Below, in pieces: positions 893 to 44,869 of a stretch of 64,000 bases of DNA (the first letter of the stretch is position 1; the number at the start of each line of letters is the position of its first letter). The position numbers and the translations under genes were made by a program. The notes under the pieces are model-generated. The model was not told the DNA's origin. It did not search any database and saw only the letters and a list, made by a program, of their open reading frames with translations. The DNA is from Apteryx mantelli (taxonomy: Eukaryota; Chordata; Aves; Apterygiformes; Apterygidae), in assembly GCF_036417845.1 (NCBI RefSeq), contig NC_090017.1, forward strand, positions 434,001 through 498,000, read 5' to 3'.

Positions 893-2000
893 CCAGGCGT
901 CCGGGCACCGGGATATCGGAGGGACCCAGGCGTCCGGGGACCCGGGCGTCTGCCCCCCCCCCCGCCCCCTCCCCCGCTGTGAACTTCCTCTGACAGTGTC
1001 GCCACCGCAGCCCCTCCCCCGCTCACGCCAACCCCGGGGCATCGTGGGAAATGGGGGGGGGGGTGTTAGGGACCCGGCTCAGTGCGGCCAAGGGGCCCAG
1101 GCGTCCGGGGCCCCTGCCCCCCCCCCCCCGCCCGAAGGGGCCCAGGCGTCCGGGCCGCCCTGCCCCCGCGCCGCTGTGGGAACTTCCCCGGGAAGTGGGT
1201 TTTTTTTCGCCGAGCCGGGCTGGGGCCCCTCCCCCTCCCCTCCCCCTCCCCTATGGACTCCATAGGGCCCCAAACCATCCCGTCCCTCCCCCCCACACAG
1301 GGACCCCTATAGGCCCCGGTCTCCCCTCTCCCGTTTCCTCTATAGGGCCCCGTTCCTCCCCCCCCCCGCAGTCCCCTATGGATCCCATAGGGCCCCTTCC
1401 CCCCCCTCCCCTATGGATCCTATAGGGCCCCTTCCACCTACCCCCCATCCCCATCCCTATGGATCCCATAAAGCCCCTCCCCCCCCATGGATCCCATAGG
1501 GCCCCTTCCCCCCCCATTCCCGTCCCCTATTGATCCCATACAGCCCCTCCCCCCCATCCCCTATGGATCCCATAGGACCCCTCCCTCGCATTCCCTATAG
1601 GCCCTATAGGGCTCCTTCCCCCCCATCCCCCATGGATCCCATAAGTCCCCTTCCCCCCCCATCCCTGTCCCCTATGGATCCCGTAGGGCCTCTCCCCCCC
1701 CCTCGTCTTCTATAGATCCTATAGGGCCCCTTCCCCCACCCCCATCCCCATCCCCTATGGATCCCATAGGGCCGGTGCTGTTCCCGGCGCAGCCGCCAGG
1801 CGTCGCCCCAAGACCCCCCCCACCCCGGAGGGGCCCAGGCGTCCGGGCGCTTCCCCCTCCCCCTCCCCCCCCCCCACATCCTCCAGGGGCCCAGGCGTCC
1901 GGGCGCCCCCATGCGGCGGGGACCCAGGCGTCCGGGCGGCCCCATCCCGGGAGGGGCCCAGGCGTCCGGGGGGGCCCAGGCGTCCGGGCGTCTCGTGTTA
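893..2000 (-). repeat. Dispersed CCCAGGCGTCCGG motifs upstream of ENO3 (minus orientation)
   Basis: At least nine copies of CCCAGGCGTCCGG occur at about 893, 926, 1097, 1141, 1835, 1886, 1922, 1954 and 1976. All are opposite to the orientation found inside ENO3. From about 2,095 the motif reads CCGGACGCCTGGG on the plus strand. Confidence 0.85.
1240..1780. repeat. Minisatellite with palindromic CTATGGATCCCATAG core
   Basis: About fourteen tandem units of roughly 35-40 bp. The unit is CCCCTATGGATCCCATAG followed by GGCCCCTTCCCCCC. The core has inverted arms CTATGG/CCATAG around ATC. No coding signal is seen. Confidence 0.9.
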
Positions 2001-2024
2001 CCGTGGCCTTTCCTCGAGCTCCGA

Positions 2025-2400
2025 CCTTTTAGGGGGGCTAAAAATAGCCCCGTGGGGGGGGGGGGGGGTCAGGGACCGTCGCAAAGTGCCGCCGGCGCCC
2101 GGACGCCTGGGCCCCCGGGGGGCTGCGAGGCCTGGGGGGGGGGGGAGGGAGGGAGGGGGGCAGCAGGGCCCCCCCGGATGCCTGGGCCCCCGGGGGGGGG
2201 GGGGGTCAGTCAGGCTCTGGTGGGTGTTGGGGGGGGGGCCTGCTCGGACGCCTGGGCCCCTGTTGGGGGGGGGGCACCCGGACGCCTGGGCCCCGCATTT
2301 GCAGACGGTCCCTTGGGGGGGGGGAAGGCGGGGCGGGGGATGGGCATAAAAGGACCCTCGGGGACCCCCCCCGGGATCACCCGGAGCCCGACCAGCGCCA
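2025..2400 (+). promoter_or_regulatory. ENO3: ENO3 muscle-type promoter and non-coding exon 1
   Basis: A CArG-like CCTTTTAGGG starts at 2025. An exact MEF2 consensus CTAAAAATAG lies at 2038-2047, and a TATA-like CATAAAAGG at 2345-2353. A short leader then runs to a good donor (GTGAGC at 2401), and the next acceptor AG is at 3120-3121 just before the ATG. MEF2 and SRF sites with a TATA box fit a muscle enolase gene. The transcription start, about 2,375, is inferred. Confidence 0.65.
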
Positions 2401-2411
2401 GTGAGCAGCAG

Positions 2412-2960
2412 CGCCCGGACGCCTGGGCCCCTCGGGGCCGCCCGGACGCCTGGGCCCCCCCCGGACGCCTGGGTCCCCCGGGGGCAGCGGGGTCTATAGG
2501 GAAGAGCGGGGCCGCCCGGACGCCTGGGCCCCCCCCGGACGCCTGGGCCCCCTGGGGGGAGCGGGGTCTATAGGGAAGAGCGGGGTCACCCGGACGCCTG
2601 GGCCCCCCCCGGACGCCTGGGCCCCCTGGGGGGAGCGGGGTCTATAGGTAAGAGCGGGGCCGCCCGGACGCCTGGGCCCCCCCCCGGACGCCTGGGTCCC
2701 CCGGGGGCAGCGGGGTCTATAGGGAAGAGCGGGGCCGCCCGGACGCCTGGGCCCCCCCCGGACGCCTGGGCCCCCTGGGGGCAGCGGGGTCTATAGGGAA
2801 GAGCGGGGTCACCCGGACGCCTGGGCCCCCCCCGGACGCCTGGGCCCCCTGGGGGCAGCGGGGTCTATAGGGAAGAGCGGGGTCACCCGGACGCCTGGGC
2901 CCCCCCGGACGCCTGGGTCCCCCGGGGGCAGCGGGGTCTATAGGGAAGAGCGGGGCCGCC
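2412..2960. repeat. ENO3 intron 1 minisatellite (~70-75 bp unit, ~7 copies)
   Basis: Each unit contains one or two CCGGACGCCTGGG motifs followed by GGGGGCAGCGGGGTCTATAG and GGAAGAGCGGGG. Copies are nearly identical, which suggests recent expansion. It lies wholly in the 5'UTR intron. Confidence 0.9.
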
Positions 2961-3123
2961 CGGACGCCTGGGCCCCCCGGCGGGGTGGGAAGCGCAGGGA
3001 AGGCTGGCGCCCGGACGCCTGGGCCCCCTGGCGCGGCGGGGGGCAGCGTGGCTGGGGGCAGCGCCCGGACGCCTGGGCCCCCCCGGCCCTGACGCCCGCC
3101 CCCCTCCCCCCCCGCCGGCAGCC

Positions 3124-6296
<3,173 letters not shown>

Positions 6297-6426
6297 GTGC
6301 GGGCGCCGCGGGCCAGGGGGCTGGGGGCCCTGGGGGCACTGGGAGGACTGGGGGGAACTGGGGGGACTGGGAGAACTGGGATAGGAAGGAAAGCGGTGGA
6401 TCCTCCAGTGTCTCGTATAGGGTTGA

Positions 6427-6626
6427 NNNNNNNNNNNNNNNNNNNNNNNNNNNNNNNNNNNNNNNNNNNNNNNNNNNNNNNNNNNNNNNNNNNNNNNNNN
6501 NNNNNNNNNNNNNNNNNNNNNNNNNNNNNNNNNNNNNNNNNNNNNNNNNNNNNNNNNNNNNNNNNNNNNNNNNNNNNNNNNNNNNNNNNNNNNNNNNNNN
6601 NNNNNNNNNNNNNNNNNNNNNNNNNN
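6427..6626. other. Assembly gap of 200 N
   Basis: Exactly 200 N. ENO3 still needs four exons, and the convergent MOGAT3-like gene needs its last two, so the real distance is probably larger than 200 bp. The round number suggests a placeholder. Confidence 0.99.
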
Positions 6627-6666
6627 TCCCCTCGCCCCCCCCCGCGCCCCACGGCGGGGTGCCGAC

Positions 6667-9600
6667 CCGTGGCGCAGCGCCAGGCGCACGAAGCCCTGCC
6701 GGTGGCGCAGGGTGACGCGGTGGCGCCCGGGGGCCCCCTCCAGCGCCTCGGCCGCCCCCCCCACCATGATGAGCAGGGCCTGATCCGGCTGCGCCAGCAC
6801 CCGGTCGAGGCAGGTGCGGCTCACGGGGCACAGCCCTGCGGGGGGGGGGGGGGGTCAGCGGGCGCCGGGGCCCCCCCAGGGCGAGGACCCCCCCCCCCCA
6901 GGTCGTGCATTGGGGGGCACAGACCCCCCCGCGGGTGTTGCTCCCGCCGCTGTCCCCCCCTTGCCTCGTTGCAGCCTGCCACTGCACCCCGAAACGCCCC
7001 ACTGCGCCCTCCCGGTGCCCCACGCGTCCTCCAGGCCCCATTGCACCCGCCCTGGCCCTGCTGCACCCCAAAAAGCCCATTGCACCCTGCAGAGGCCCAT
7101 TGCACCCCAAGAAGCCCTGTTGCACCCCAAAAAGCCCCATTGCACCCTGCAGAGCCCCTTTGCACCCCCCAAAAGCCCCACTGCACCCTCCAGAGCCCCT
7201 TTGCACCTCCTCAGAGCCCCATTGCACCCCACAGAGCCCCATTACACCCTCCAGAACCTCTTTGCACCCCAAGAAGCCCCATTGCACCCCACAGAGCCCA
7301 TTGCACCCCACAGAGCCCCATTGCAACCTGCAGAGCCCTTTTGCACCCCAAGAAGCCCCATTGCACCTCCCCAGAGCCCCATTGCACCCCAAGAAGCCCT
7401 ATTGCACCTCCCCAGAGCCCCATTGCACCCCAAAAAGCCCCACTGCAGCTTCCAGAGCCCCATTGCACCCCAGAAGACCCATTGCACCCCAAAAAGCCCC
7501 ACTGCACCCCCCTGAGCCGCACTGCACCCCCAAAATCCCCATTGCACCCCAAGAAGCCCCATTGCACCTCCCCAGAGCCCCATTGCACCCCCAAAATCCC
7601 CATTGCACCCTAGAAAGCCCCATTGCACCTCCCCAGAGCCCCATTGCACCCTGCAGAGCCCCTTTGCACCCCAGAAGACCCATTGCACCCCCAAAATCCC
7701 CATTGCACCCCAGAAAGCCCCATTGCACCTCCCCAGAGCCCCATTGCACCCTGCAGAGCCCTTTTGCACCCCAAGAAGCCCCATTGCACCCCCAGAAGCC
7801 CCATTGCACCCCCGAAATCCCCATTGCACCCCCCCGAGCCCCACTGCGCCCCCCAAACCCCCCTTGCGCCCCGCGCTCACCGGCGGCCAGGGCGTAGTCG
7901 CGGTAGAGCGGCAGGCGGAAGAGGCCGGCCAGGGCGGCCAGGCTGGGCCGCAGCCCCGGGCAGGGCCCCCCCCCGGGCGCCGGGGCCCCCCGCGCCCCCC
8001 GGCCCCCCGTCACGAAGGCCCCGAAGACGCCGGCGCAGGCGATGCCGTGCGGGTGGGCGGCCAGCACGTAGCTGCGCCCGGGGGGCAGCGGGGCCGAGCG
8101 CAGCACCTGGGGGGGGGGCACGGGCGTATAGGGGCGTACAGGGGCGTATAGGGGTGTATAGGGGATACAGGGGGATATAGGGGGATATGGGGGGACACGG
8201 GGCCATGGCGGATGTAGGGGGACAGAGGGACATGGGGGGATATAGGGGAATGTAGGGACAGGGGGGACCCAGGGGGCCATGGGGATATGGGGGGGCACGG
8301 GGTACATAGGGGGATATAGGGGGACACGGGGTATGTACGGGGACAGAGGGACATGGGCACAAGGGATATAGAGGGACATAAGGGGATACAGGGGGACACG
8401 GGGACATGGGGATGTAGGGACATGGGGGACATGGGGGGGACGTAGGGATATGGGGGATATAGGGGGATGCAGGGGGATATAGGGGGACAGAGGGACATGG
8501 GGGGATGGAGGGACATGGGGATATAGGGGGACACGGGGATATAAGGAGGATGTAGGGACACGGGGGGGATGCAGGGACATGGGGGGATATAGGGGGACAT
8601 AGGGGACATGAGGGACATGGGGGACATGGGGGACACAGGGGATATAGGGGACACGGGGTCGTAGGGACATGGGGGGACGTAGAGAGGTATGGGGGTACAT
8701 GGGATATAGGGGACACAGGGGACATGGGGGGGGACATGGGGGGGGGACAGGGCCAGATGTGCCAGCGAGGGCAGGGACCGGGCATGGCCCCAAAACGCAG
8801 TGGCATCCCCTGTCCCCCCCCCCGTGTCCCCATGTCCGTCCCCATCCCCGTCCCCGTACCGTGATGGGGAAATAGTCACAGAAATGTTCCCAAATCTTCC
8901 AGTTTCGGATCACTCGCAGTGACGGGGACCTGAGGGGACAATGGGGGGGGGACGACGACACAGGTCTCACTCAGGGTGGCCCCAGGGTTCCTTGCCCCCA
9001 TCCCCGTGTCCCCATGTCCCCAACCTCTTGCATGGCCATGGGGGTCCCCATGTCCCCATCCCCGTGTCCCCATGTCCCCAACCTCTCGCATGGCCATGAG
9101 GGTACCCATATCCCCATCTGTGTCCCCACCTCCCTCGGGGACCTGGGGGGGTCCCCATGTCCCTGTCCCATGTCCCCTAGTGCTCCCAGGGCCTTGGGGG
9201 CATGCCCGTGTCCCCATGTATCTCATGGCCATGAAGGTCCCCATGTCCCCGTCCTCATGTCCCCATGTCCCCCCACCTCTCTTGGGGACCTTGGGGGTCC
9301 CTGTGTCCCTCTGTTCCCACCTCTCTCAGGGTGCTGGGGTGTCCCTGTCCCCATCCCCACGTCCCACCCCTCTCGGGGCCCCCGGGGGGTCCCCATGTCC
9401 CCATGTCCCCATGTGTGTCCCCACCTCTCTCGGGGCCGTGCCAGTCCCAGAGCCACCAGGCGAAGTAGAGGACGGAGAGGAGCCAGAGGCGGGTGCGCAG
9501 CAGGTACAGGAGGAGCAGGACGGAGGCCGGGCCTGGGCGCCCGGACGCCTGGGTCCCCCGGACGCCTGGGTCCCCCGGGGCCGGGGCCACGCAGAGCCTG

Positions 9601-9940: not shown

Positions 9941-9952
9941 GGCCTGGGGGGG

Positions 9953-10500
9953 GACACGGGGACACAGGGGGACGTGGGGGGGGGACATGAGGGGCCACGG
10001 GCCCCCCCCCGGCACCCCGGGGTGCCCCTCGCCCCACGCACCTCCTCGCGGGCGCCACGTTCAGCTCCGGCGCCGCACTTTGCCCTCGGCGAGGGAGGTG
10101 CCCCGGGAGCCCAGGCGTCCGGGCTCGGGTTGGGGCCCGGGAAGGAAGGGAGACGAGGGGGGAACCCCCCCCCCACCCAGCACCCCGAAATCCCACCTCT
10201 GAGTCTCCCCGGCACCCCAAAAACTTCAGCTCCCCCCACAACCCCAGTGCTCAGCCAGGGTCCCCCCAAATCCCAACCTCCGAGTCCCCCTGACACCCTC
10301 AGACCCCAATACCCAGCCAGGGTCACCCCAAATCCCCCCCAGCCCCCCCCAAAATCCCAACCTCAGAGTCCCCCCAACACCTTCAGCCCCCCCAAGACCC
10401 CAGTGCCCAGCCAGGACCCCCCCCAAATCCCCTGGGACCCTCCTCAGCCCCCCCCAAACCCTCCCAGCACCCCTAAAAGCACCACACGCTTCCAGGAGAG
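9953..10500. other. Intergenic region between the two MOGAT genes
   Basis: Contains the putative MOGAT3 upstream region (CpG-rich, one CCCAGGCGTCCGG at 10,110) and an array of CCCCCCAAATCCCAACCTCGAGTC-like units (about 10,190-10,470). No coding exon is recognised. Confidence 0.6.
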
Positions 10501-10504
10501 CTGG

Positions 10505-10510
10505 TTTATT
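10505..10510 (-). terminator. Poly(A) signal AATAAA of MOGAT2-like gene
   Basis: TTTATT on the plus strand, 74 bp past the expected stop codon of the minus-strand acyltransferase. Confidence 0.75.
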
Positions 10511-10583
10511 GGAGGGGATTTGGGGAGACACAGAGGGGGTCCGGGGGACGGGGGGGGACCCAGGCGTCCGGGGGGTCCCGGCC

Positions 10584-13500
10584 CTAGACGAAGGTGAGGT
10601 GCCGCTCGGGGGGGGACCCCGTAACGGCCCTTGTGCTCCTCGAAGAGGGCGACGAGCTGCTCCAGGTAGAGGCGATGCCACCGCTCCACGGTCTGGGGCG
10701 ACGGGTCGGGGGTCCGGGGCAGCGCCAAGGGGGCCCCCACTGCGGGGGGGGGGGGGCAGAGCACAGAGGTCAGGGCAAGGCGAGGAGGGGCCCAGGCGTC
10801 CGGGCACATTTCCCCCCCCCCACACACACACACACACACCCCTTCCAAACCTCAGGGCACCCCCAGATTCGCCAGTCCCCATTCGGGGATCCCTTGCTCG
10901 GGGCCCAGGCGTCCGGGCCCCTCCTGCTGCCTCCGTGCCCCACACATCCAGGACCCCCCCCCAAAAAAACCTCCCAGTCCTGGTCACCACCCCAAGGGGC
11001 CCAGGCGTCCGGGCCACCCTTTGCCCTAGCTGAGCTCAGCCAGTTGCAACAGCCCTTGGGGACCCCCGAGGGGCCGCGGTTGGGCAACGGGGGGGGGTTG
11101 AGTGGGGCAGAGGCCCCCGGCGCTGCCAGGAACCTCCCCCGCAGGAGGGGCCCAGGCGTCCGGGATGCTTCCCACCCCCCCAAAAGGGATGGAGGCGCTT
11201 GGAAGGGGGTGATCCCACCCCAATAGGACCAAAGCATCCGGCCGTGCTGCCCAGGTGTCCACGCACAACCCCCCCCCCAAATTCCTCCCACCCCAGGGGG
11301 GCCCAGGCGTCCGGGCAGGGCGGAGGGGGGGGGGGGGCCCAGGTGTCCGGCTCACCCACGGTGTGGATGGGCCTGCGGAAGGGCAGGAGGCCGAAGCTGT
11401 ACTGGAAGACGCCGCGCGCGTGGAAGAGCGGCAGAGCCACCCCCAGGACGCGCTGGAGCCGGAGCTGGAGGCGCCGGAGCCCCGAGCCGGGGGGGTTGGA
11501 GACCTGCTGGAAGAGCTCGTTCTCCCCGAAGGAGAACACGGGCACCAGCGAGGCCCTGGCGCGGCCATCACCGGGGGCCCAGGCGTCCGGGCTGCCCCCC
11601 TCCAGGGACACCCCGACCTCCAGGCATCCCCCTCCTCATCCACCCAGGCGTCCGGGTACTCCCAGCCCCACGTGTCGGCACCCAAAGGTGGGACCTCCCC
11701 CCACCACCACCCAAACTCAGCATCTGGGGGTCCAAAGAGACCCCCCCCGTGCCCCCTAGAGCCCCCATCTCCATAGGGACCCCCAAGTCCCACCAAAAGC
11801 CCCATATCCCTATGGGATCCATCAAGGATCCCACAGCCCCCACCCCACAGAGCCCCCCATACACCTCTAGGAACCCCCAAAACCCATGGAGGCCACCAGA
11901 GAGCTCAAAGTCCCCCCAAGTTACCTCAAAACCTCTTAAGGACCCCCAAAAACACCTTAGGACCCCCACAGCTCGCCATAGGGATCCCTAAAACCCCATG
12001 GAGGCCACCAGGGAGCTCAAAGCCCCCCCAAGTTACCTCAAAACCTCTTAAGGGCCCCCAAAAACACCCTTAGGACCCCCACAGCTCCCCATAGGGACCC
12101 CTAAAACCCCAATGGAGGCCACCAGAGAGCTCAAAGCCCCCCCAAGTTACCTCAAAACCTCTTAAGGACCCCCAAAAACACCCTTAGGATCCCACAGCTC
12201 CCCATAGGGACCCCTAAAACCCCAATGGAGGCCACCAGAGAGCTCAAAGCCCCCCCAAGTTACCTCAAAATCTCTTAAGGACCCCCCAAAAACACCCTTA
12301 GGACCTCCACAGCTCCCCATAGGGACCCCTAAAACCCCATGGAGGCCACCAGGAAGCTCAAAGCCCCCCCAAGGTACCCCAAACCCCACTAAGAACCCCA
12401 CACACCCCTGGGAACTCCATAGCTCCCCATAGGAACTCCCTATGAGGACCACAAGGAGCTCAAAGCCCCCCCAAGGGATCAAAACCCCCTTAAGGATCCC
12501 CAAAACCCCCTTAGGACCCCCCCGGGACCCCCCCAGCCCCACTCACCGTGCTCCAGGGCGATGCGCACGAAGCCCTTGCGGGCCAGCAGCTGGAGCGTCA
12601 GGGCGCCGGGGCGGGCGTCCAGGGCCTCGGGGGGCCCCCCCACGGCGATGACGGCCACCTGCCCCCCGCCCCGGCGGCTCAGCAGGTATTCCAGGCTGGC
12701 CTTCTCCGAGGACACCAGCCCTGCGGCGGGAACCCAGGCGTCCGGGCTCCGCGCGCTGCCTCCCCCCTCCCTGGGGCAGCCAGGGAGCCCAGGCGTCCGG
12801 GTTCAGCACCCCAACGCTGCCCCAGGCTTCTCCCCCCCCCCACAGGCATCTGGGGCCACCGGGGGACCCAGGTGTCCGGTGGGCACAAAGGGACCCTCCG
12901 TGGGCTGAGGGACCCAGGCATCCGGGCTCCCGGGCCCAAAGGGACCCAGGCGTCCGGGGGACCCAGGCATCCGGGCTCCTGGGCACAAGGGAGACCCCCG
13001 CCAGGCCCAAAGGGACCCAGGCGTCCGGGAGATCCCGGCGTGCAGGGGACCCCGGGGGGGCGGCTCACCCCCGCAGAGCAGGTAGTCGCGGAGCAGGGGC
13101 AGGCGGAACCAGCAGGGCAGGGTGAGCAGGTGGGGGCGCAGGCCCGGGAAGAGCCCCCCGAAACCCGTCGCCTCCGTGCAGAAGTTGGCGAAGGCGCCGG
13201 CGGCCAGGACGCCATGCGGGTGGAAGCCGAAGACGTAGTTGCGCCGGGGGTCCAGCTCCGTCGTCCGCACCAGCTGCCGCCGCGAGCGGAAACCCCCCCA
13301 CCCCACCCCCGAGCGGGTCAGGGGGACCCCAAAAACTGCCAGGAGCCCCCAAACCACCCCAAGATCACAACCTCCCCCCCCCCAGCACCCACCAAAATCC
13401 CCCAAGGACCCTCCAAATGCTCCAGGGACCCTTACAGGGATCCCCAAACCCTCCATGGACCCCCCCAACCCCCCCATGACCCCCCCCAAGGTCCCCTCAG

Positions 13501-15217
13501 CCTTCCTAGAGCCCCTCCAGGGACCCCCAGAGCCCCCCAAGGACCCACCAGGGGCCCTTCTAGGGACCCAAACCCCCCAGGGACCCCCCCCAAGGTCCCC
13601 CCAACCTTCCAGAGATCCCTCAACCCCCCTGGAGCCCCTCCAGGGACCTCCAGAGCCCCCAAAGACCACCAGGGGCCCTTCTAGGGACCCCAAATCCCTC
13701 CAGGGACCCCTCAGCCTTCCTAGAGCCCCTCCAGGGACCCCAGAGCCCCCCAAGGACCCACCAGGGGCCCTTCTAGGGACCCCAAACCCTCCAGGGACCC
13801 CCCCAAGATCCCCCCAGCTCTCCAGGGAGCCCTCAACCCCCCTGAAGGCCCTCCAGTGACCCCCAAGGACCCCTAAAGCCCTCCAACCCCCTGGAGCCCC
13901 TCCAGGGTCCCCCAGAGCCCCCAGGGACCCCTTTAGGGACCCCCCCAAGGTCCCCCAAGCCCTTTGGAGACCCCTCAACCCCCCTGGAGCCCTTCCAGGG
14001 TCCCCCAGAGACCCCTCAACCCCCCTGGAGCCCTCTAGGGTCCCTCCCCCCCCCCGCCCCAGGCCGCGGCTCACCGAGATGGGGAAGTAGTCCCGGAAGT
14101 GCGCCCAGAGCGTCCACCCGCGCACCCAGGCGGAGCGGCGCCCCCCGCGGCGCGGCGTCTCGCGGTCCGCCAGTAGCCAGGCGCCGTAGAGCAGCGCCGG
14201 CAGCCAGAGGGCGCCGCGCAGCGCCAGGGCGAAGAGCAGCGCGCACAGCTGCCCTGGGGGCCCAGGCGTCCGGCAGGGGCACGGGGACACCCCCCGGCAC
14301 CCCCCCGCCAAGGGGCACCCCGACCCCCCCCCGGGAACCCCCCCAGGAGCCCCCCCGAAACACCCCCCCCCCCGCCCCAGCGCGCACAGCTGCCCTGGGG
14401 GCCCAGGCGTCCGGCAGGGCCGCGGGGACACCCCCCGGCACCCCCCCCGCCAAGGGGCATCCCGACCCCCCCCCCGGGAACCCCCCCCCCAGGAGCCCCC
14501 CCGAAACACCCCCCCCCCCCGCCCCAGCGCGCACAGCTGCCCTGGGGGCCCAGGCGTCCGGCAGGGGCACGGGGACACCCCCCCGGCACCCCCCCGCCAA
14601 GGGGCACCCCGACCCCCCCCCGGGAACCCCCCCCAGGAGCCCCCCCGAAACACCCCCCCCCTCCGCCCCAGTGCGCACAGCTGCCCTGGGGGCCCAGGCG
14701 TCCGGGGAAGGAGGGGGGGTAATGGGGACACCCCCGGGACATCCCCCCAAGCAAGGACCCAGGCGTCCGGGAAGGGGGGGATGGGGCCACCCCCCTCGGG
14801 CCACTCGTCCCCCCCCCAGGTACCCCGCCCCCAAGGACCCAGGCGTCCGGGGGGGTGGGGGGGGGACTGGGGACACCCCCGGGACACCCCCCAGGTACCC
14901 CCCCTCCAAGGACCCAGGTGTCCAGGGAAGGGGGGGGGGCACACGGACCTCCCCCCAGAACACCCCCCCCAGGGACCCAGGCGTCCGGGGTGGTGGGGGG
15001 CACATTCCTCCCTTCCCCTTCTTTCCCCCCCCCCCGGGGACCCAGGCGTCCGGGGTGTGTGCGGGGGGGGGTCACACCCCCCTTCCCCCCCCCCCCCCCG
15101 GGGGACCCAGGCGTCCGGCTCACCGAGGGCCAGGAAGGAGAAGACCCACTGCAGCACGGCCGCGGTCTGCAGGCGGCGGCGCAGCGGCACCCGCAGCGGG
15201 GCGAACCGGAGCGGCAT
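10584..15217 (-). CDS. MOGAT2-like monoacylglycerol O-acyltransferase
   Basis: Second DGAT2-family enzyme, paralogous to its downstream neighbour. Six coding exons (minus): 15124-15217, 14075-14253, 13069-13273, 12547-12720, 11356-11555, 10584-10739; about 335 aa, the family length. It starts [22 protein letters not shown] and FSFLALG match MOGAT2-type N-termini. Motifs: [66 protein letters not shown] and [19 protein letters not shown]. The equivalent of exons 2 and 3 of the MOGAT3-like gene is one exon here. Two one-base anomalies: the exon starting at 11555 is one base short for its phase (GGG run), and a C8 run in the last exon (about 10,610) has one C too many for the family ending [12 protein letters not shown]. 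These are sequence error or early decay. MOGAT1 remains possible, so no symbol is given. Confidence 0.85.
11900..12480. repeat. MOGAT2-like intron 4 minisatellite (~115 bp unit, 5 copies)
   Basis: Units start CACAGCTCCCCATAGGGA (about 11,968, 12,080, 12,192, 12,308 and a degraded one at 12,418) and include TCTTAAGGACCCCCAAAAAC. Copies differ by few bases. Confidence 0.9.
13380..14045. repeat. MOGAT2-like intron 2 minisatellite, CCCTCCAGGGACCCCC units
   Basis: Approximately 30 bp units of GGAGCCCCTCCAGGGACCCC fill the intron between exons 2 and 3, with higher-order periods of about 150-200 bp. Confidence 0.88.
14238..14705 (-). repeat. Tandem duplication carrying the exon 2 splice acceptor
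   Basis: Four copies (starts near 14,242, 14,383, 14,529 and 14,673; period 141-146 bp) of a block that on the minus strand contains CCGGACGCCTGGGCCCCCAG followed by GGCAGCTGTGCGCGCTG. This is the genuine acceptor and first codons of MOGAT2-like exon 2. Only the copy at 14,253 continues into exon 2; the other three are decoys. Confidence 0.9.
14690..15120 (-). repeat. MOGAT2-like intron 1 array of oriented motifs
   Basis: Six copies of CCCAGGCGTCCGG or close variants on the plus strand (about 14,695, 14,759, 14,837, 14,985, 15,040, 15,108), hence sense for the minus-strand gene, spaced 60-80 bp. The last one abuts the exon 1 donor. Confidence 0.85.
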
Positions 15218-15339: not shown

Positions 15340-16030
15340 GGGCGCCGCTTGTGCAAGCGCTCGGGGCGACGCTTGTGCAAACGCCCCTGCAATAGTTGGG
15401 GCTTGTGCAAATGCTTGTGCAATGATCAGGGTTTGTGCAAATGCCCGTGCAACGTTGAGGGTTTGTGCAAATGCCCGTGCAATGTTCAGGGCTTGTGCAA
15501 ATACCCGTGCAATAGCCAGGGCTTGTGCAAACGCCCCTGCAACATTCAGGGCTTGTGCAAACGCCTGTGCAACATTGGGGGCTTGTGCAAACAACTGTGA
15601 AACACCGGGGCTTGTGCAAATGCCTGTGCAACATTTAGGGCTTGTGCAAGCACCCACGCACTGCTGGGGCTTGTGCAAGCACCTGTGCAACGCTCAGGGC
15701 TTGTGCAAATGCTTGTGCAATATCCGGGGCTTGTGCAAACGCCTGTGCAACGCTCGGTGCTTGTGCAAACGCCCGTGCAACACCCAGGGCGATGCAAACG
15801 CCTGTGCAACGCTCGGTGCTTGTGCAAACACCCGTGCAACACCCAGGGCTTGTGCAAATGCCTGTGCAACGCTCGGTGCTTGTGCAAACACCCATGCGAC
15901 ACCCAGGGCTTGTGCAAACGCCTGTGCAATGCTCGGTGCTTGTGCAAACGCCCGTGCAACACCCAGGGCGAGTGCAAACGCCCGTGCAACACCGGGGGCT
16001 TGTGCAAACGCCCGTGCGACACCCACGTGC
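15340..16030. repeat. Minisatellite of TTGTGCAAACGCCYGTGCAA units upstream of MOGAT2-like
   Basis: About twenty-four units of 27-30 bp, GGCTTGTGCAAACGCC followed by YGTGCAAYRCYCAG. It starts about 120 bp upstream of the MOGAT2-like start codon. Each unit has TTGTGCAA, a close match to the C/EBP consensus. No interspersed unique spacers, so not a CRISPR array. Confidence 0.92.
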
Positions 16031-16175
16031 AAGGGACCCAGGTGTCCGGGTGCCCCCGCGCCACCCCCCAGACTGGGGACTCGGTGGGGGGGGGGGGGGT
16101 GGCAGCGCCCCCGCGGGCCCCGCTGTGGGCACTGGGATGAACTGGGACGCGCTGGCAGCAGCCGGGACGCCGGCC

Positions 16176-29879: not shown

Positions 29880-30660
29880 CTGGTGCCGGTCTCTCCTTGG
29901 GGGCTCAGGGAGGGCAGGGCCGGGTGCCAGCGGGGGCTTAACGAGGGCCTTAACAAACTGGGCAATAATGGCCCAAGTGACACGGGGGTCCCGGACGCCT
30001 GGGCCCATCCCCATGGCCTTGAGCACTTGGTAATAACAAGGGTTATGGCAGGGAGGGAACCCAGGCATCCAGGCCCGGCACCTTCCCAGTACTCCCAGTG
30101 TCCTCCCATGCCACCAGTGCTCGGCTGGCCTCGTCCCTGGAGGCCAACATGGGGACAGGGACGGGGACACTGGGGGAGGTCCTAGAGCTGGGCATCGACA
30201 CCTCATCTGTCCCAGGGATGGGGACAGCCAGGCACCCTGGGGTCCCCCGTCCTGTGATGCCATCCATTACGTCCCGTCCGGGCAGGGGTAGGAGCCCCAC
30301 GCCTGAGGCCTGGCACGCTCGTGACATGCACAAGCTCCTCCTCTCGGTCCTGTCCATCACCATCGTCATCATCAGTGAGCCCAGCCCCATATCCCCCAGT
30401 GTCCCGTGCCCTCACCCCATGTCCCCGCATGTCCCCCCGTGTCCTGTGTGCTGATGCTGTGTCCCATGTCCCCATCCCGCGTCCCATGTGCTTATCCTGT
30501 CTTGTGTCCTCCATCCCGTGTGCCACCCTTGTCCCAAGTGCACTCCCGTGTCCCCCATCCCATGTGCCACCCGGGGCAGGGAAGAGCCCCCTTGGCGGGA
30601 CTCCCATGATGCCCTGGGGCAGGAAGTGTTCCCCCTTGGCAGAACTCCCATGAGCCCCCG
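29880..30660. other. Intergenic region MBLAC1-LAMTOR4, no gene recognised
   Basis: Mixed-complexity DNA with one CCGGACGCCTGGG at 29,993, a degenerate reverse copy at 30,059, and an array of CATCCCGTGTCCCATGTG-like units (30,400-30,640). Short open frames exist, but none resembles a known family and no convincing exon set was found. Confidence 0.6.
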
Positions 30661-31011: not shown

Positions 31012-32586
31012 ATGGTGAGTGCGGGGTCGGGGGGCGCTAGGACCCGGGGGGGGGTCCTTTGGGGGACTGGGATGGGGGGCACTGGGACCCTGGAGAGTCC
31101 CTTTGGGGAACTGGAAGCACTGGGATAGGGGGCACTGGGATGGGGGGCACTGGGACCCTGGGAGGCCCTTTGGGGAACTGGGAGCACTGGAATGGGGGGC
31201 ACTGGGATGGGGGGCACTGGGACCCTGGGAGGCCCTTTGGGGAACTGGGAGCACTGGGATGGGGGACACTGGGAGAAACTGGGACCCTGAGGGGGGCACT
31301 GGGGGGGGGGAACTGGAGCCCTGGGGGGGGCATGGGGGAACTGGGAGAAACTGGGACCCTGAGGGAGGACACGGGGGGAGCCTGGGCTGGGGGGCACAGA
31401 GGGCACAGGGGGGGTCACGGTGGGGGGGAACTGGGAGGAAACTGGGGCACTGTGGGATTGGGGAGGGGGGCACTGCCGGGTGGGGGGGGTGTCCCTGCGA
31501 TTTGGGGGTGACAGCTCCCCCCCCCCACCGGTCCTCCCCCCTCCCCAGACCACGGCGCTGACCCAGGGGCTGGAGCGGATCCCGGACCAGTTGGGCTACT
31601 TGGTCATCAGCGACGGGGCCGTGCTGGCGGTGAGGGCGCCCGGACGCCTGGGCCCTCGGGGCGGGGGGGGCCCCCGGACGCCTGGGCCCCTGCAAAGGGT
31701 GGGGGGGGGGGCAGATGGGCACATGGCAGCACAGAGGAGGGAGCGAGGTGGAGCAGGGGCACCTGAGTGACAGGAGGGAGGTTGGGGACACCGTGGGGGT
31801 GGGTGGGCCCGGACGCCTGGGCCCCGGTGACGCTGTGTGTGTCCCCCCCCCACCATGGCAGTCGGCCGGCGACCTGGAGAACGACGAGCACACGGCCGCG
31901 GTGCTCTCGGAGCTGGTGGCCACGGCCTGCGGGCTGCGGCTGCAGCGCGGCCACGACCCCCCCTTCAAGCGCCTCTCGGGTGAGTGTCCCCCCCCCCCGG
32001 TGGTGGCTGTCACCCGCTTGTCCCCAGGGTGGCCGTGGCCCCTGCGCTGGCCCCGTGGTGGCAGCAGCCTCAAGGACCCTGGGGTGGTGGTGGCCCTCCA
32101 CGCTCACCTTGTCCACCAGGGTGGTGGTGGTGGTGGTGGTGGTGGTGGTGGCCCCGCGCTCACCAGGTACCTGGGGTGGTGGTGGCCCTGGTGGCCCCAT
32201 GCTCACCCTGTCCTCAGGGGAGTGGTGGCCCCAGTGTCCCCAGGGTGATGGTGGTGGCCTCGGTGGCTCCACATTCACCCTGTCCCCAGGGGAGTGGTGG
32301 CCCCGGAGTGATGGTGGTGGCCTTGGTGGCCCCACGCTCACTCTGTCCCTAGGGAGTGGTGGCCCCAGTGTCCCCAGGGTGATGGTGATGACCCCGGTGG
32401 CCCCACACTCGCCCTGCCTCCAGGAGGGTGGCGTCCCCGGGGCGACGGTGGTGGCCTCGGTGGCCCCGTGCTCACCCTGTCCCCGCAGTGGTGTTCGGGG
32501 AACACTCCCTCCTCGTCACCGTCTCCGGGCAGAAGCTCTTCGTGGTGAAGCGCCAGAACCACGTCCAGGAGCCCGTCGCCGTGTGA
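31012..32586 (+). CDS. LAMTOR4: Ragulator complex protein LAMTOR4
   Basis: Roadblock-fold Ragulator subunit that anchors Rag GTPases and mTORC1 at the lysosome. Exons: 31012-31014 (the ATG only, directly followed by GTGAGT), 31549-31629, 31862-31979, 32489-32586; 99 aa, identical to the human length. Translation begins M then [19 protein letters not shown], continues [18 protein letters not shown] and [17 protein letters not shown], and ends [16 protein letters not shown] and [14 protein letters not shown]. All introns are GT-AG with matching phases. The stop TGA is at 32584-32586. Confidence 0.97.
31040..31480. repeat. LAMTOR4 intron 1 repeat, GGGGGGCACTGGGACCCTGG
   Basis: Units of about 75 bp containing GAGGCCCTTTGGGGAACTGG and GAGCACTGGGATGG, two almost identical at 31,130-31,265. 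Confidence 0.9.
31990..32470. repeat. LAMTOR4 intron 3 repeat, GGTGATGGTGGTGGCC-type units
   Basis: Units of 50-65 bp, GTCCCCAGGGGAGTGGTGG with CTCGGTGGCCCCACGCTCACC. It includes a (GGT)n tract at about 32,120-32,150. Confidence 0.88.
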
Positions 32587-33029: not shown

Positions 33030-33035
33030 AATAAA
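33030..33035 (+). terminator. LAMTOR4: Poly(A) signal AATAAA of LAMTOR4
   Basis: GACAATAAATTGTGTCC, with a downstream GT-rich tract. About 200 bp from the convergent TRAPPC14 signal. Confidence 0.85.
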
Positions 33036-33233
33036 TTGTGTCCTGGTCCCGTCCCCGTCCCCCGTGGCAGCTTCTTTTGGGGGGGGGGGGACGTGGCTCC
33101 CCTCAGGGCAGGGGACGGGGTGACAGCAGGGGTCACGGTGGGGGGGTGTCCTGCTTTCCCCCATCGCCCGTGTCCCCCTCGGGGCGACAGACCTGTCCCC
33201 ACGTCACCGTCACCAGCACGTCCAGGCCAGCGC

Positions 33234-33239
33234 TTTATT
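33234..33239 (-). terminator. TRAPPC14: Poly(A) signal AATAAA of TRAPPC14
   Basis: CGCTTTATTCGC on the plus strand, about 600 bp past the TRAPPC14 stop; gives a tail-to-tail spacing of about 170 bp with LAMTOR4. Confidence 0.7.
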
Positions 33240-33835: not shown

Positions 33836-36800
33836 TCACTTGACGGGCTCCACGACGAGCACCTTGCACTCCCGCTTGGCGATCTTGTCCAGGGACAGCA
33901 CCGTCTTCTCGGGGGGCAGGTAGAGGGGCCGCCCCACGGGGGAGCCCACCGGCGGGGTGATGGCGCGCCGCTCCATGACGCTGCCCGACCTGGCGGCGCC
34001 GGGCGCTGAGGGGGCTGTCCCCTGCCCCGCGTCCCTGCGGGGCTGCCGGTCCCCTGTCCCTGCAGGGCTGGCTGTCCCCTGCCCCGCGTCCCTGCGGGGC
34101 TGCCGGTCCCCTGCCCCCTGTCCCGGGGGGGCTGGCGGTCCCCTTCCCCGCGTCCCTGCGGGGCTGCCGGTCCCCTGCCCTGTGTCCCTGCGGGGCTGCC
34201 GGTCCCCTGCCCCGTGTCCCTGCGGGGCTGGCTGTCCCCTGCCCCGTGTCCCTGGGGGCCTGGCTGTCCCCTGCCCCATGTCTCTGCAGGGCTGGCTGTC
34301 CCCTGCCCTGTGTCCCTAGGGGGCTGGCTGTCCCCTGTCCCTGTGGGGCTGGCTGTCCCCTGTCCCTGCGGGGCTGGCTGTCCCCCTCCCCGCCCCCCCC
34401 CAGCACAGGTATCCCCCCTGTGCCAAACACCCCTCTGCCCCGGGTGCATCCACCACGCTGGGTGTCCCCGCTGTCCCCTCCAGCCCCGGGTGCCACCCAC
34501 CTCGTCTCCCTCTCACCCCACACGTCCCCTTGCCGCGCGTCCCCTCATCCCGGCTGCCGTCCCCTCCCCGGCATCCCCCTCCCCGCCAGCTCAGCCCCGC
34601 GCGTCCCCCCAGCCCCGTCCCGCGCGTTGTCCCCTCTCCGGGTCCCCTCCGTACCTCATGAGGTGGCTGCGGGACGGCTGCTGGTGGGAGAAGGACTGGG
34701 AGCGGCCGAGGCCGGCCTGGTGCCGCTCCACCAGGTCGCGCACGGCCGGGCTGCTGGGGCTGCTCTTGCGCGACACGGGCCGGGCCTCGGGCGGCGGGTT
34801 GGCCACGCTCGCCGTGAACTGCAGCTTCAGCTTCATGTGCTGCGACAGCTGGCGACGGCGCGGCGCCGGTGACGCCGGGCTCCGTTCCCGCCCTCCCTCC
34901 CGCCGCCCTCCCGCCGCCGAGCCCCGCGACGGGCCCAGGCGTCCGGGCGGCCTCACCTCGAAAAGCCCGGCCCGCAGCGCCTGGAAGGCCACGCGGATGG
35001 TGAGGGCGCTGCCCTTGCGGGAGTAGCCCAGGTTGTTGAGCGGCGTGTGGCACACGATGGCGTCCAGCGCCGCCTGCGTGGCCCGGCGCTCCTCCCCGGA
35101 CAGCTTCTTCCCTAGAGGGGGGACACGTGGCGATGGGATCTCTGCGCTTTCTCGGCCACCTCCGTCACCTCCATCCCCTCTCGGTCGCCTTGTTCTCTCC
35201 CAGCCAACGCTGTCCCCTCTGATTCCTCCATCTCCCTGCACCTCTCCTCATCACATCCATCCCCAGATCTTCCTCCATCTCCTCTGTCCCCTCCTGGCCA
35301 CCTCTGTCACCTCCATTGCTTCTTGGCCACCTTGTCCTCTCCCAGCCAACACTGTCCCCTCTGATCCTTCCATCTCCCCACACCTCCCCTCATCACGTCC
35401 ATCCCCAGATCCTTCTCCATCTCATCTGATCCCCTTCCCATCTTCTCTGTCATCTCCTGGCCACCTCTGTCACCTCCATTCCTTCTTGGCCACCTTGTCC
35501 CCTCCCAGCCATCACTGTCCCCTCCAGTCCCTCTCAGCCACCTTGAAACCTCCTGGCCATCCCTGTCCCCTCTGATGCCCCCCATCACGTCCATCCCCTC
35601 TTGGCTACCCCCAGATCCTCCCGCCAATCCCCTCCCCGTCCCCTCCTGTCCCCACCGGCCGTGGCGGTCTCGGGCGTCCAGACGAGCCGCACGGCCAGGA
35701 AGTCCTGGAGGTCGTTGAGCAGCGTGTAGGTGACGGTGAAGCGCTGCCGGGCCCGCACCGGTGACTCGCAGGCGGCCGTCATCACGAAGCGCGGCCGCTC
35801 CAGGCGGATGCTTGGCAGCCTGGGGACGGGACAGGGGTTAGGGACGCGGGGACGGCCCCGAGGAGCCGCGGGGACGGCCCCGAGGAGCCCTGGGGACACG
35901 GTTTAGCGACACGGGCACACGGGAACCACCACGTGGCACCCTGGGGACGTGGGGTTAGTGACATGGGAATGGCACGAGCCCAGGGCAGGGATCCCCCTGC
36001 TTGGAGCAGGAGGACTGGGGGGGTCCCTTCCCCTTTGGGGACAGTGACCCAGAGGTCCCTCCCTTGGGGACCGGGGCCATCGAGGACCTTCGGGGCGGCT
36101 CTCACCGGTAATGGGTGTAGATGCTGCTGGTGAAGGGCAGTTTGGGCGTCGACCACTGGATCACGGCCACCAACGGGACCTCCAAGCCCTGCAGGGACAG
36201 AAGGTCAGGAATGTCCTTGTCCCCACTGCCCACGGCAAGGACAGACCCCCCTCATCCCAGCCAGGATGGTCCCCCAAACCCCCCAGCGCCCCTCAGATTC
36301 CCAGAATGACAAATCCCCCCCCCCCCGCCCAGCCGGGATGGTCCCTCTCGGTGTCCCCTCATCCCTCACGTCCCCCCAGTCAGGACGGTCCCCCCCCCCA
36401 GGGTCCCCCCCACCGTGTCCCCTCACCTCCTTGGCGTCCTCGGGGGGCCTCTCGGGCGCCTGGAGCTGGAAGAGGAAGTTGTGCTCCTCGAGGGCGCTGA
36501 GGGCGCAGGGACAGGCCGAGCCGGCGCTGGCCACGCGGCAGAAGGCGCCCACGGGCACCTCGCCCGAGTGGTGGCTGCGGGACGGGGCGCGGGGACAACT
36601 CAGGGACGCGTGGGACAGCCCGGAGCCGGGGGGGGGGGGTGGCCTCCCTGGGGCCGAGAGCACGGCACGGCCCCATCCCAAGGGACGGGCAGACCCCCAC
36701 GGCCTCCCTCGGGGTCCGGGAGACGGCACAGCCGCGTCCCCCCCGCCCCAGGGACCGTCCCCGGCGTCCCCAACGCTCACCAGACGTCATCGACCAGCAG

Positions 36801-39542: not shown

Positions 39543-39599
39543 GGGCCCAGCCGGTACCGGGGGAAAGGGGGGGGGGGAACGGGAGGACCGAGGGGGAGG

Positions 39600-40360: not shown

Positions 40361-40367
40361 TCCAGCT

Positions 40368-40373
40368 TTTATT
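40368..40373 (-). terminator. GAL3ST4: Poly(A) signal AATAAA, probably GAL3ST4
   Basis: CTTTTATTGCC on the plus strand, about 1.5 kb past the GAL3ST4 stop. If used, the 3'UTR contains the whole 40.57-41.77 kb minisatellite. Confidence 0.55.
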
Positions 40374-40569
40374 GCCATTAGGACGGCGCGAGCCGTGACG
40401 GAGGAGGGGCCTGGCCAAGCCCCTCCCCCGGGGGCTCCACCCACGTGCCACGAACATGCTACGACACGCATTTGACATGCCACTGACATCACGTGACGTG
40501 CCACGAGGCACGCTACGACCTGCCATGATGCCGTGAACACGCCACTGCAGACATGCCACATGCCCAAAC

Positions 40570-41775: not shown

Positions 41776-41880
41776 GGGGCTCCCTGCCACGTCCACAGGC
41801 TGGGGGGGGGGCTACGGAGGGGTTGGGGGGAAGGGGCAATCTCTCGCCACGCCTGCCCCCCCCCCCCGCCGCCCCCGCCG

Positions 41881-44796
41881 CTAGGCCCCCGGCGGCGCCG
41901 TGCCGTTGCCCCCCGTCCCGAACTGCCGCCGGTCGAGGATGTCCTTGTACTGGAGCTCGGGGGTGGCGAGGCGGGCGCAGCGCTCGCGCTCGGCCGGTGG
42001 CAGCCCGGCCCTCAAAGCGTAGCCCAAGATCTCGGCCCGTCCCGGCGGCTGGAAAGGCCGGAGGCGGCCGTCGGCGATGGCGCCCGCCGCCACGGGCCCG
42101 CCGCCCCGCAGGCAGCGCCGCGCCAGGGCGTCCCGGCGTTCCCGCAGCCTCCGCACCTCGTCGCGGAGCCGGGCCGCCCCGAAGGCCTCGGCCCGGCGCC
42201 AGAAGGAGCGGTTGAGGTGGGCGTAGAGGGCCCAGTCGAGGGCGTTCCAGGCGCGGAGGCGGGCGGCCTGGGCGGCGCTGAGGGTGGCGGGCGCCCGGCG
42301 CCCGTTGTGGGCGAAGGCGGCCACGTCGTCCTCGGCCCAGCACAGCGCGTCGCGCAGCAGCACCAGCGACTCGTCGAAGTGCTCCGCCAGCAGCACCAGG
42401 GCGAACGCCCGCTCCACGCCCGCCACCGCCGCCGCCACCGCCCCGGCGTCGCCCGGCGCCGACGGCAGCCCGAAGTCGAACCACAGCAGGTTGCGGGCGT
42501 AATGGTTGCCCCGCGCTCCCGGCTCGTAGAAGCGGCCCGGGGACGCCAGGAAAGCTCCCAGCGACGGAGCCCGCCGGAAAGCCGGAGCTATGGCCCGGTA
42601 GTAGGCGAAGGCCGACTCGCCCAGCGTGCCCGGGTCCCGCACGATGGAGAAGTAGAAGGTGTCGTTGGGCATCACCTTCTGCACCTGCGGGGGGGGGAAC
42701 GGGGCGAAGGGCTCGGCGGACCTGCACGGCGCCCGCGGGCCTCCTCCCTCTCCCCCGGGCGTCCTCCGTCTCCCCTGGATGCTCGCCATCTCCCCTAGAC
42801 AGCCTCCGTGTCCTCCAAGCATCCTCCATCTCCCCCAAACATCCATCGTCTCCCCCAGGTGTCCTCCATCCCTCCTAGATGGCCTCCATCTCCCCTAGAC
42901 GTTCCCCAACTCTCCTGGATGTTCCCCATCTCTTCTGGATGTCCCCCATTTCCCTCAAACATCCATCGTCTCTCCCAGGTGTCCTCCATCCCCCCTAGAC
43001 GTCCCCCATCTCCTCCAAACATCCATCGTCTTCCCCCAGGTGTCCTCCATCCCCCCCAGATGTCCCCCATCTCTCCTAGATGTTCCCCAACTCTCCTAGA
43101 TGTTCCCCAACTCCTCCAAACATCCATCATCTCCCCCAGGTGTCCTCCATCCCCCCTAGATGGCCTCCATCTCCCCTGGACATTCCCCAACTCTCCTGGA
43201 TGTTCCCCATCTCCCCTGGATGTCCTCCCTTTCCTCCCAGACGTCCACCATCTTCTCTAGAGGTTCCCCATCTCCTCCAGGCGTTCTCTATCTCCTCTAG
43301 ATACTCCCCATTTCCCCCAGACATTCCCCATCTCCCCTGGATGCTCCCCATCTCCCCCGGACACCCTCCATCCCTCCTAGACATCCTCCATCTCTCCCAA
43401 ATATCCACTATCTCCCCTAGAGGTTCCCCATCTCATCCAGGCGTCCTCCATCTCCTCTAGATGTTCCCCATCTCCCCCAAACATCCCCCATCCCTCCTAG
43501 ATGTTCCCCATCTGCCCCATGCATCCACCATCTCCCCCAGGCATCCTCCATCTCCCCTGGACGTCCTCCGTCTCGCCCGGACATCCTCCGTCTCCCCTAG
43601 ACATTCTCCATCTCCAGGCGTCCACCATCCCACCTAGATGTGCCCCCAGCATTCCCAGCATCCCCGCGTCCCCCACATCCCCGGCGTCCCCGTCACCTCG
43701 GGCAGGTTGAAGCGCATGTGGTGGCAGAGGATGTCGAAGGGGGGCCCGCCGGGGCGGTAGCCCTTGACGCGGCTGGCCTGGAAGGGGCTGGGGTAGCCGA
43801 ACTGGTAGCGGTGGGGCAGGGCGAAGCGGAGCCCGTGGGCCTCGCCGAAGCGGTGCAGCAGGTTCACCACGCTGCTGCTGCCCGTCTTGTGCGTCTTCAG
43901 GAAGACCAGGTGGGTGCGGGGCCGGCAGGGCTGCGGCGGGCGGGCGGCGGGCGCCGTGGGGGGCCTGGAGGTGGGGGGGTGCGGGCACCGCGTCGGGGGG
44001 CACCCAAGGGGACGGGGAGCGTCATGCCACCCGTCCCAGGTACCCAAGGGGTTGGGGACCCCCATCTCGCCCATCCTGGGCACCGGAGGGGATGACACCC
44101 ACATCAGCCATCCCAGGTACCCAAAGGGTTGGGGATCCCTGTCCTGCTTGTCCCCAAGCACCCAAGGGGTTGGGGACCCTCATCTCGCCCATCCTGGGCA
44201 CCAGAGGGGATGAGGACACCCACATCATCCATCCCAGGTACCCAAAGGGTTGGGGACCCCCATTCTGCCCCCCCCCAGGGGGCCCAGGAGGTTGGGGACC
44301 TCCACATCAGCCATCCCAGGTACCCAAGGGGTTGGAGAACCCCATGCTGCTTGTCCCCAAGCCCCCAAGGGGATGGGGACCCCCATCCTGCTTGGTCTCA
44401 AGCACCCAAGGAATTGGGGACCCCCATCTCACCCATCCTGGTCACCCAAGGGGATGGGGACCCCCATCCTGCTTGGTCTCAAGCACCCAAGGAATTGGGG
44501 ACCCCCATCTCACCCATCCTGGTCACCCAAGGGGATGGGGACCCCCATCCTGCCTGTTCCCCAAGCACCCAAGGGGTCAGAGACCCCCATCCCAGGCACC
44601 CAGAGGGTGGGATCCCCCATCCCCCCCCCCGAGGAATTATGGGGTGCAGATTCCAGGGGAGATGGGCCGGGCCGGGTGACACCCACCTCCGCTGGAAGGG
44701 TCCCACCAAGAACTGCACCACGAAGCCAACGGTCACGCAGACGCCCAGGGCGGCCGCCAGCACCTGGAGCCGGCGGCAGGTGGGCGGCAGCTTCAT
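41881..44796 (-). CDS. GAL3ST4: Galactose-3-O-sulfotransferase 4
   Basis: Golgi type II membrane sulfotransferase that transfers sulfate from PAPS to C3 of galactose on O-glycans. Three coding exons (minus): 44687-44796, 43697-43964, 41881-42684; 393 aa, shorter than human (about 486). A short cytosolic N-terminus (MKLPPTCRRLQ) is followed by a membrane anchor (VLAAALGVCVTVGFVVQFLV). The PAPS 5'-phosphosulfate loop is LKTHKTGSSSVVNLLHRFGE and the 3'-phosphate motif is YFSIVRDPGTLGESAFAYYR; then ARNLLWFDFGL, LLAEHFDESLVLLRDALCW and the C-terminal YKDILDRRQFG. Gal3ST paralogues are similar; synteny between TRAPPC14 and STAG3 decides for GAL3ST4. The stop TAG is at 41881-41883. Confidence 0.93.
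42765..43650. repeat. GAL3ST4 intron 2 repeat, CATCTCCCCTAGATGTTCCC
   Basis: About thirty units of 30 bp (YCCCCATCTCCYCYAGAYRT), with a partial higher-order repeat carrying AAACATCCATCGTCTCCCCC. Confidence 0.92.
44020..44620. repeat. GAL3ST4 intron 1 repeat, CACCCAAGGGGATGGGGACC
   Basis: Units of about 60-65 bp containing CCCATCTCACCCATCCTGG; two identical copies at about 44,375-44,510. Confidence 0.9.
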
Positions 44797-44869
44797 GGTC
44801 CCGCGGGGACACGGGGGCTCGGGGGACCCAGGCGTCCGGGCCGCCGGCGCTTAGGGGGACGCTGCGAAG

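Follow-up and report, generated by a model that had tools for sequence, protein, structure and literature searches.

Copies of an 18-bp GC-rich core, CCCGGACGCCTGGGYCCC, recur through a 64,000-nucleotide stretch of Apteryx mantelli DNA (contig NC_090017.1, positions 434,001 to 498,000; hereafter the window), almost entirely outside coding exons and mostly in the direction of the genes that carry them. This tracking of gene strand by a repeat is strong on the contig studied. We tentatively favour, at somewhat short of even confidence, an explanation in which a minisatellite-type core was seeded in GC-rich introns and multiplied locally by sequence stuttering, with a sense bias that stems from retention or from the seeding itself. 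The analysed genome comprises 1.504 Gb in 408 contigs, and the window corresponds to C41:434001-498000. With 640,892 bases, C41 appears to be an avian dot microchromosome, judging from its gene content, very high GC, small size and fit to published descriptions. A wider sample, consisting of the window and 100 kb on each side (264 kb of C41, 334001-598000), contains 359 copies with up to one mismatch.

An abundant 18-bp core, locally multiplied and decaying at CpG

The window holds 89 motif matches with up to two mismatches on both strands, whereas 100 dinucleotide shuffles gave a mean of 13.9 (sd 3.65, maximum 23). The roughly 80-90 copies estimated by eye in a first-pass annotation of this DNA are thereby borne out. 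Sixty-eight of the matches are exact and nine have one mismatch, affording 77 near-exact copies. Genome-wide, the exact 13-mer within the core occurs 10,482 times (5,068 + 5,414), versus 57 (37 + 20) for a reversed-pattern control, and in the 264-kb sample the motif is the source of the three 12-mers with the widest dispersal.

Flank comparison of 347 exact copies (C41 plus 29 further loci) revealed where the common sequence ends. Among 51,764 pairs of distant copies (including two pairs from the overlapping loci L007/L008), identity mostly stops 1 base to the left and about 4 bases to the right of the 13-mer: such pairs mostly have a leading C and a trailing YCCC in common, and nothing beyond. 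Because identity stops sharply at these bounds, the common unit is the 18-mer CCCGGACGCCTGGGYCCC. Near pairs have longer flanks in common, which is what tandem duplication predicts. Tandem Repeats Finder, which returned 320 rows for the window, places the 18-bp core within tandem arrays of many unit lengths, and repeat-filled introns of ENO3 and of a MOGAT-like gene (MOGATb) were seen by direct reading. In 113 single-mismatch copies, 47 changes are transitions at the central CpG and 12 more fall at the other CpG. Since transitions concentrate at methylatable CpG sites (491 copies), motif variants reflect mostly CpG decay. A rare 5' variant, ACCGGACGCCTGGG, was listed at 69 places.

Coding sequence is avoided. 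Only 4 of the 359 copies in the wider sample fall in coding-like segments, against 34.9 expected, and the near-absence from coding exons noted at first pass thus holds. By translation, the RNF167 case reflects in-frame read-through of an intron, and those in the SERPINE1-like gene, ENO3 and a second MOGAT-like gene (MOGATa) lie before or next to the true exon. In-frame translation of the core yields the peptide PDAWAP, which is present in three coding-like segments.

Orientation and placement on C41

Seventy-five of the window's 77 near-exact copies are aligned with their assigned gene and 2 are opposed, under an assignment that gives flanking copies to the nearest gene (22 upstream of the ENO3 start codon, 9 at 892-1987 towards PFN1, and one each for MBLAC1, TAF6 and GAL3ST4). 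Strictly within gene bodies the count is 40 sense versus 2 antisense: ENO3 11/0, MOGATa 9/2, MOGATb 16/0, LAMTOR4 3/0 and TRAPPC14 1/0. Few exceptions had been noted at first pass, and the one discordant near-exact pair, at 9541-9570, is a pair that the first-pass annotation had named.

The same preference extends across the wider sample, in which 24 listed gene spans contain 180 sense versus 35 antisense copies. Twelve of these spans carry copies, every one with a sense majority, and twelve, including TAF6, STAG3 and MCM7, carry none. Three copy-bearing genes outside the list were added later: PSMB6, a gene at 81-87 kb (4 sense versus 0) and an ArfGAP gene at 152-156 kb (1 versus 0); the 3' part of LRCH4 contributes one further antisense copy. 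With these included, 14 of 15 genes are sense-majority, PSMB6 being the antisense one, and copies number 185 versus 44; a two-sided sign test on genes, computed by hand, gives about 0.001. An automatic intron model (17 gene spans, 92 introns with both splice sites) yielded 20 sense-major introns versus 1 antisense-major, in KIF1C, and the count becomes 20 versus 3 once antisense introns of MINK1 and PSMB6, absent from that model, are included. In 13 of the 20 introns, no more than 30 nt separate the first copy from the donor (null 7.7, p 0.0135), and no excess of copies was found near acceptors (8 versus 9.8 expected, automatic intron model). When 810 8-mers were ranked for gene-strand bias, the top five all derived from the motif.

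Gene strands were set by Pfam for ENO3, MOGATa, MOGATb, TRAPPC14, GAL3ST4, TAF6, CNPY4, MBLAC1, STAG3 and others, with profilin and MINK1 kinase exons scoring slightly below the curated cut-offs. PSMB6, LRCH4, ArfGAP and mucin exons stand outside the Pfam set, and genes were otherwise identified by eye. Two exons of the gene that we take by eye to be LAMTOR4 gave no Pfam match, and gene names finer than a Pfam domain are likewise assigned by eye. The genes concerned are as follows.

Left of the window: SERPINE1-like gene, PSMB6, MINK1, SLC25A11, RNF167 and PFN1 (minus strand)
Within the window: ENO3, two MOGAT-like genes (MOGATa and MOGATb), TAF6, CNPY4, MBLAC1, LAMTOR4, TRAPPC14, GAL3ST4, STAG3 and an AP-mu gene
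Right of the window: COPS6, MCM7, CAMTA2, KIF1C, PCOLCE, LRCH4 and the ArfGAP gene

Within C41 334001-598000, MINK1, PFN1, ENO3, CAMTA2 and KIF1C are interleaved with TAF6, STAG3, MCM7 and PCOLCE on one small chromosome; the first group is syntenic to human 17p13 and the second to 7q22.

Copies in the window are distributed as listed below, where near-exact denotes up to one mismatch in all feature counts.

892..1987, minus strand: 9 copies (up to one mismatch), PFN1-directed, upstream of the PFN1 and ENO3 start codons (motif scan)
2099..3077, plus strand: 22 copies (up to one mismatch) on the 5' side of the ENO3 start codon at 3124, with many of them in a 74-bp tandem array at 2433-2978
4567..4579, plus strand: one copy in an ENO3 intron of 80 nt, 30 nt past the donor
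4760..4772, plus strand: copy 9 nt past the ENO3 donor GTGAGG
5306..5318, plus strand: copy whose one mismatch turns CpG into CpA, immediately before an ENO3 acceptor, in the same intron as 4760
5564..6040, plus strand: 8 copies within a single ENO3 intron of 545 nt, beginning 9 nt past the donor
9541..9570, plus strand: 2 copies antisense to MOGATa, the sole discordant near-exact copies in the window
10110..11655, minus strand: 10 copies in MOGATa (DAGAT domain, minus; motif scan and Pfam)
12733..13028, minus strand: 7 copies within a single 348-nt intron of MOGATb (DAGAT domain, minus; Pfam)
14261..15118, minus strand: 9 copies (up to one mismatch) in a more 5' MOGATb intron, the first directly past the donor GTGAG
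14237..14705, minus strand: 147-bp repeat in MOGATb that carries motif, acceptor and exon edge (CCCCCAGGGCAGCTGTGCGC) four times, the genuine edge counted
16037..16049, minus strand: one-mismatch copy in the 3' flank of TAF6, between that gene and MOGATb
29991..30003, plus strand: single copy 3' of MBLAC1
31640..31821, plus strand: 3 copies within a single LAMTOR4 intron of 232 nt, beginning 10 nt past the donor
34934..34946, minus strand: single copy in a 117-nt TRAPPC14 intron, 10 nt past the donor
44827..44839, minus strand: single copy in the GAL3ST4 5' flank

Motif orientation reverses within about 110 bp (1987-2099) between the PFN1 and ENO3 start codons, an arrangement that resembles a divergent promoter, and a comparable flip lies upstream of the SERPINE1-like gene at window coordinates of about -77.4 to -77.2 kb. 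The MOGATb repeat at 14237-14705 is exon stuttering. Between MOGATb and TAF6, positions 15371-16022 hold a tandem array of about 22 copies of a 30-bp unit, GCTTGTGCAAACGCCCGTGCAACACTCGGG, and a 200-base run of N (6427-6626) separates the last recognised ENO3 exon from MOGATa. With up to one mismatch, the window scan found no copies in TAF6, STAG3 or the AP-mu gene. Two gene attributions made at first pass also need amendment: CNPY4 has no copy at this threshold, its only match (26474) having two mismatches and lying in a coding-like segment, and the copies ascribed to GAL3ST4 reduce to the one in its 5' flank (44827), with none in the gene body.

Orientation across the genome and candidate explanations

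For the genome as a whole, a splice-donor-like sequence next to the motif served as a proxy in place of gene annotation. When GGTGAG loci with the motif within 30 nt were grouped into 3-kb clusters, the comparable part, among the first 100 matches listed for each orientation, contained 67 sense versus 33 antisense clusters. For this count a common end was set near C37:473 kb, a duplicated family on C20 was entered once per orientation, and arrays on C36 and C37 were represented by their first and last rows. Complete lists for AGGTGAG contained 62 sense versus 40 antisense rows, with about 33 chance rows expected per orientation; after 6 sense and 4 antisense rows had been removed by eye as duplicate strings, they formed 48 sense versus 25 antisense clusters (p 0.0095). 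A stricter donor pattern, AGGTRAGT, gave 7 matches on the sense side, the only side searched, and was too strict. The C20 family (16.05-16.16 Mb) holds the core in near-identical antisense context past GGTGAG, in 13 rows.

At orientation-blind loci outside C41, the nearest coding segment agrees with the motif in L001, L003, L004, L006 and L033, opposes it in L002 and L007/L008, and is absent from L005. Six kinase-exon loci served as unbiased anchors: copies occurred only in L033, where 5 of 5 were sense, and the other five had none. In our judgement, sense orientation may hold for an estimated 60-80% of the introns that carry copies across the genome, and C41 would be near the top of that range. 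The tracking of gene strand is strong on C41 (180 of 215 copies in the listed spans) and appears only partial elsewhere, where raw counts are equal and clusters favour sense about 2:1.

According to the explanation that we favour, CCCGGACGCCTGGGYCCC would be the core of a minisatellite-type repeat that is dispersed over avian dot microchromosomes and other GC-rich ends. Individual cores may be seeded into introns and gene flanks by a copying process, and sequence stuttering would then multiply the seeded cores in direct orientation, leaving one orientation per intron. Intact copies would be renewed by copying and lost by CpG decay. As regards the bias, the sense core contains no AG, and each antisense copy puts an acceptor-like CCCAG/G into the pre-mRNA; antisense seeds in transcribed introns would for that reason be lost more often, which predicts fewer antisense copies near acceptors. 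Alternatively, seeding may be anchored at splice donors, which would set the orientation. How the cores are copied and why they are biased are both inferred. At first pass it had been argued that a mobile or random repeat would not track host strand; this was too strong, because direct tandem copying together with selection inside introns can produce such tracking.

Several observations weigh against this explanation. Raw counts of GGTGAG followed by the motif within 30 nt are equal, at 280 sense versus 282 antisense, although a few arrays (C36:1146841-1148454 and C37:472492 onward) and the C20 family swell the antisense total. All 8 copies in PSMB6 are antisense, with 0 sense, in one intron (window coordinates -52956 to -52279), and a MINK1 intron (L012:6960-7700) contains one array of 25 antisense copies with up to one mismatch; further antisense arrays lie in real introns at other loci. 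At 10 + 10 donor-anchored loci, coding sequence immediately before the donor was found for 5 antisense and 4 sense loci (p up to 0.063), and antisense copies beside real donors and exons are therefore not rare. Antisense copies upstream of CCGCAGG acceptors number 69 rows in a one-sided search of the antisense side. Finally, copying that always ends at the same 18 bp is left unexplained. The MINK1 and PSMB6 introns, with 25 and 8 copies, provide natural antisense controls.

Much of this evidence bears on a local founder effect, which is a real possibility if a doubtful one. Here the orientation in each gene was set once by chance and kept by direct duplication, such that agreement on C41 is partly luck and any genome-wide bias is slight or absent. 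The equal raw donor-anchored counts, the real donors at 4 of 10 sense versus 5 of 10 antisense fetched loci, the wholly antisense PSMB6 and the mixed orientation-blind loci outside C41, with L002 and L007/L008 opposed, are all as such an effect would have them. Chance alone fits poorly with 14 of 15 sense-majority genes and 20 versus 3 introns on C41, or with genome-wide clusters that favour sense in both counts, 67 versus 33 (among the matches listed) and 48 versus 25.

An effect exerted through RNA is unlikely. In its simplest form, the core would be a sense-strand element whose pre-mRNA copy is bound during splicing and helps to define short GC-rich introns; gene-direction bias combined with exon avoidance, and the placement of a copy no more than 30 nt past the donor in 13 of 20 introns, are consistent with this. 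Sense RNA, with its GGG and CCC runs, is predicted to form a hairpin CCCGG-ACGC-CUGGG that includes a G.U pair lacking in antisense RNA, and the sense context is calculated to fold more stably at 162 of 251 copies (mean -14.1 versus -13.0 kcal/mol). But 12 of 24 gene spans lack any copy, antisense introns exist, and gene flanks also carry copies. Nor does variation point to a maintained structure: T10C, which would convert G.U to G-C, occurs in 1 of 113 single-mismatch copies, and no stem-compensating changes were seen in the mismatch spectrum (491 copies, dominated by CpG transitions, with pairwise covariation not counted). We accordingly rejected an RNA hairpin under selection, the spectrum bearing no sign of selection, and the selection at the RNA level proposed at first pass finds, as RNA structure, no support in variation that is mostly CpG decay. 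Rfam returned 0 matches over the window at gathering thresholds. It is more doubtful still that an 18-nt sense RNA signal, recognised by a protein or a small nuclear ribonucleoprotein, helps to splice the GC-rich, unstable introns of dot chromosomes and that this function keeps both the spread and the orientation of the core.

That a transcription-coupled DNA effect, whether an R-loop or G-strand skew, fixes orientation is highly unlikely. The strand that carries the motif is richer in G in the flanks, with a mean oriented GC skew of +0.10 within 300 bp, and some other G-rich 8-mers also lean sense (TCTGGGGG and GCTTGGGG, 11 versus 0 genes each). However, the sign of the skew predicts 244 of 359 copies, compared with 180 of 215 for gene strand (24 listed spans), and both the MINK1 antisense array (oriented skew -0.21) and copies upstream of TSC22D4 (-0.28) defy it. 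Poly-G-type 12-mers are mostly balanced between gene strands, as are most other dispersed 12-mers tried (GGGGACACGGGG, 4 versus 5 genes), with GGGGACATGGGG leaning sense (7 versus 2). Local GC skew was thus rejected as the cause of orientation, and the R-loop cause raised at first pass is unsupported, because skew is a weaker predictor than gene strand.

Insertion of a transposable element or fragment with strand bias is extremely improbable: copy number is high and spread over many contigs, but distant copies have nothing in common past 18 bp, the window contains no Rfam family, and we rejected this candidate for want of a common body or defined ends beyond the core. A two-copy pattern gave 0 matches in GTDB genomes; a 20-base pattern gave 5 there, in unrelated bacteria, and an 18-base pattern gave 2 in IMG/VR, each the sole near-match at its locus, all of which we read as chance.

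Relation to known repeat systems and significance

Three familiar classes of sequence invite comparison. Minisatellite cores of the Jeffreys type are short GC-rich cores common to otherwise unrelated tandem arrays. The kiwi element likewise is a short GC-rich core across unrelated arrays, but many of its copies are single and dispersed, and on C41 most take the orientation of the host gene. Introner elements are dispersed intronic sequences, mostly sense, that contain their own splice sites and form the intron. The present core is also dispersed within introns and mostly sense, whereas it has no splice sites of its own, and its copies lie in introns with separate donors, in arrays and in flanks. 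G-run intronic splicing enhancers occur near donors of short vertebrate introns; a GGG run near donors is found here too, but as part of an exact 18-mer that is patchy among genes and also present in flanks and in antisense.

The closest parallel is the sequence stuttering that Hron et al. 2026 (PMC12954441) describe, in the parts of that article considered here, on chicken dot chromosomes, where introns are filled with local repeats and exon edges are sometimes copied; these parts place ENO3 on chicken dot chromosome 35 and infer a local origin for repeat clusters in general. Set against that account, the present case has in common a small GC-rich chromosome with repetitive introns and spared exons, and an exon edge with its splice site copied into the neighbouring intron (MOGATb). 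It differs in that a single 18-mer, with a gene-strand bias, turns up in genes that are unrelated and lie on many contigs. Because the same 18-mer is found on many contigs, the core is not simply a stuttering repeat, although it is carried by such repeats. In the main text of PMC12954441, insofar as it was covered, 'orientation' and 'motif' each occur 1 time and 'sense' 0 times, and neither a dispersed 18-mer nor a strand bias is reported. The portions of Guizard 2016, Huang 2023, Beauclair 2019 and a chicken promoter motif paper that were consulted do not mention the motif, and the part of the open PMC literature searched contained none of four 13- or 14-base motif strings and reported no strand-following motif of such kind. 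What is new relative to stuttering is the non-local 18-mer and its strand bias.

For gene predictors, the PDAWAP read-through of the core is a warning. Dot microchromosomes hold many of the 'missing' bird genes, and their introns keep filling with repeats. Since one sharply bounded core is common to unrelated genes and mostly gene-directed, these repeats are not all locally born, and the core offers a countable marker with which to separate a copying mechanism from selection on transcripts.

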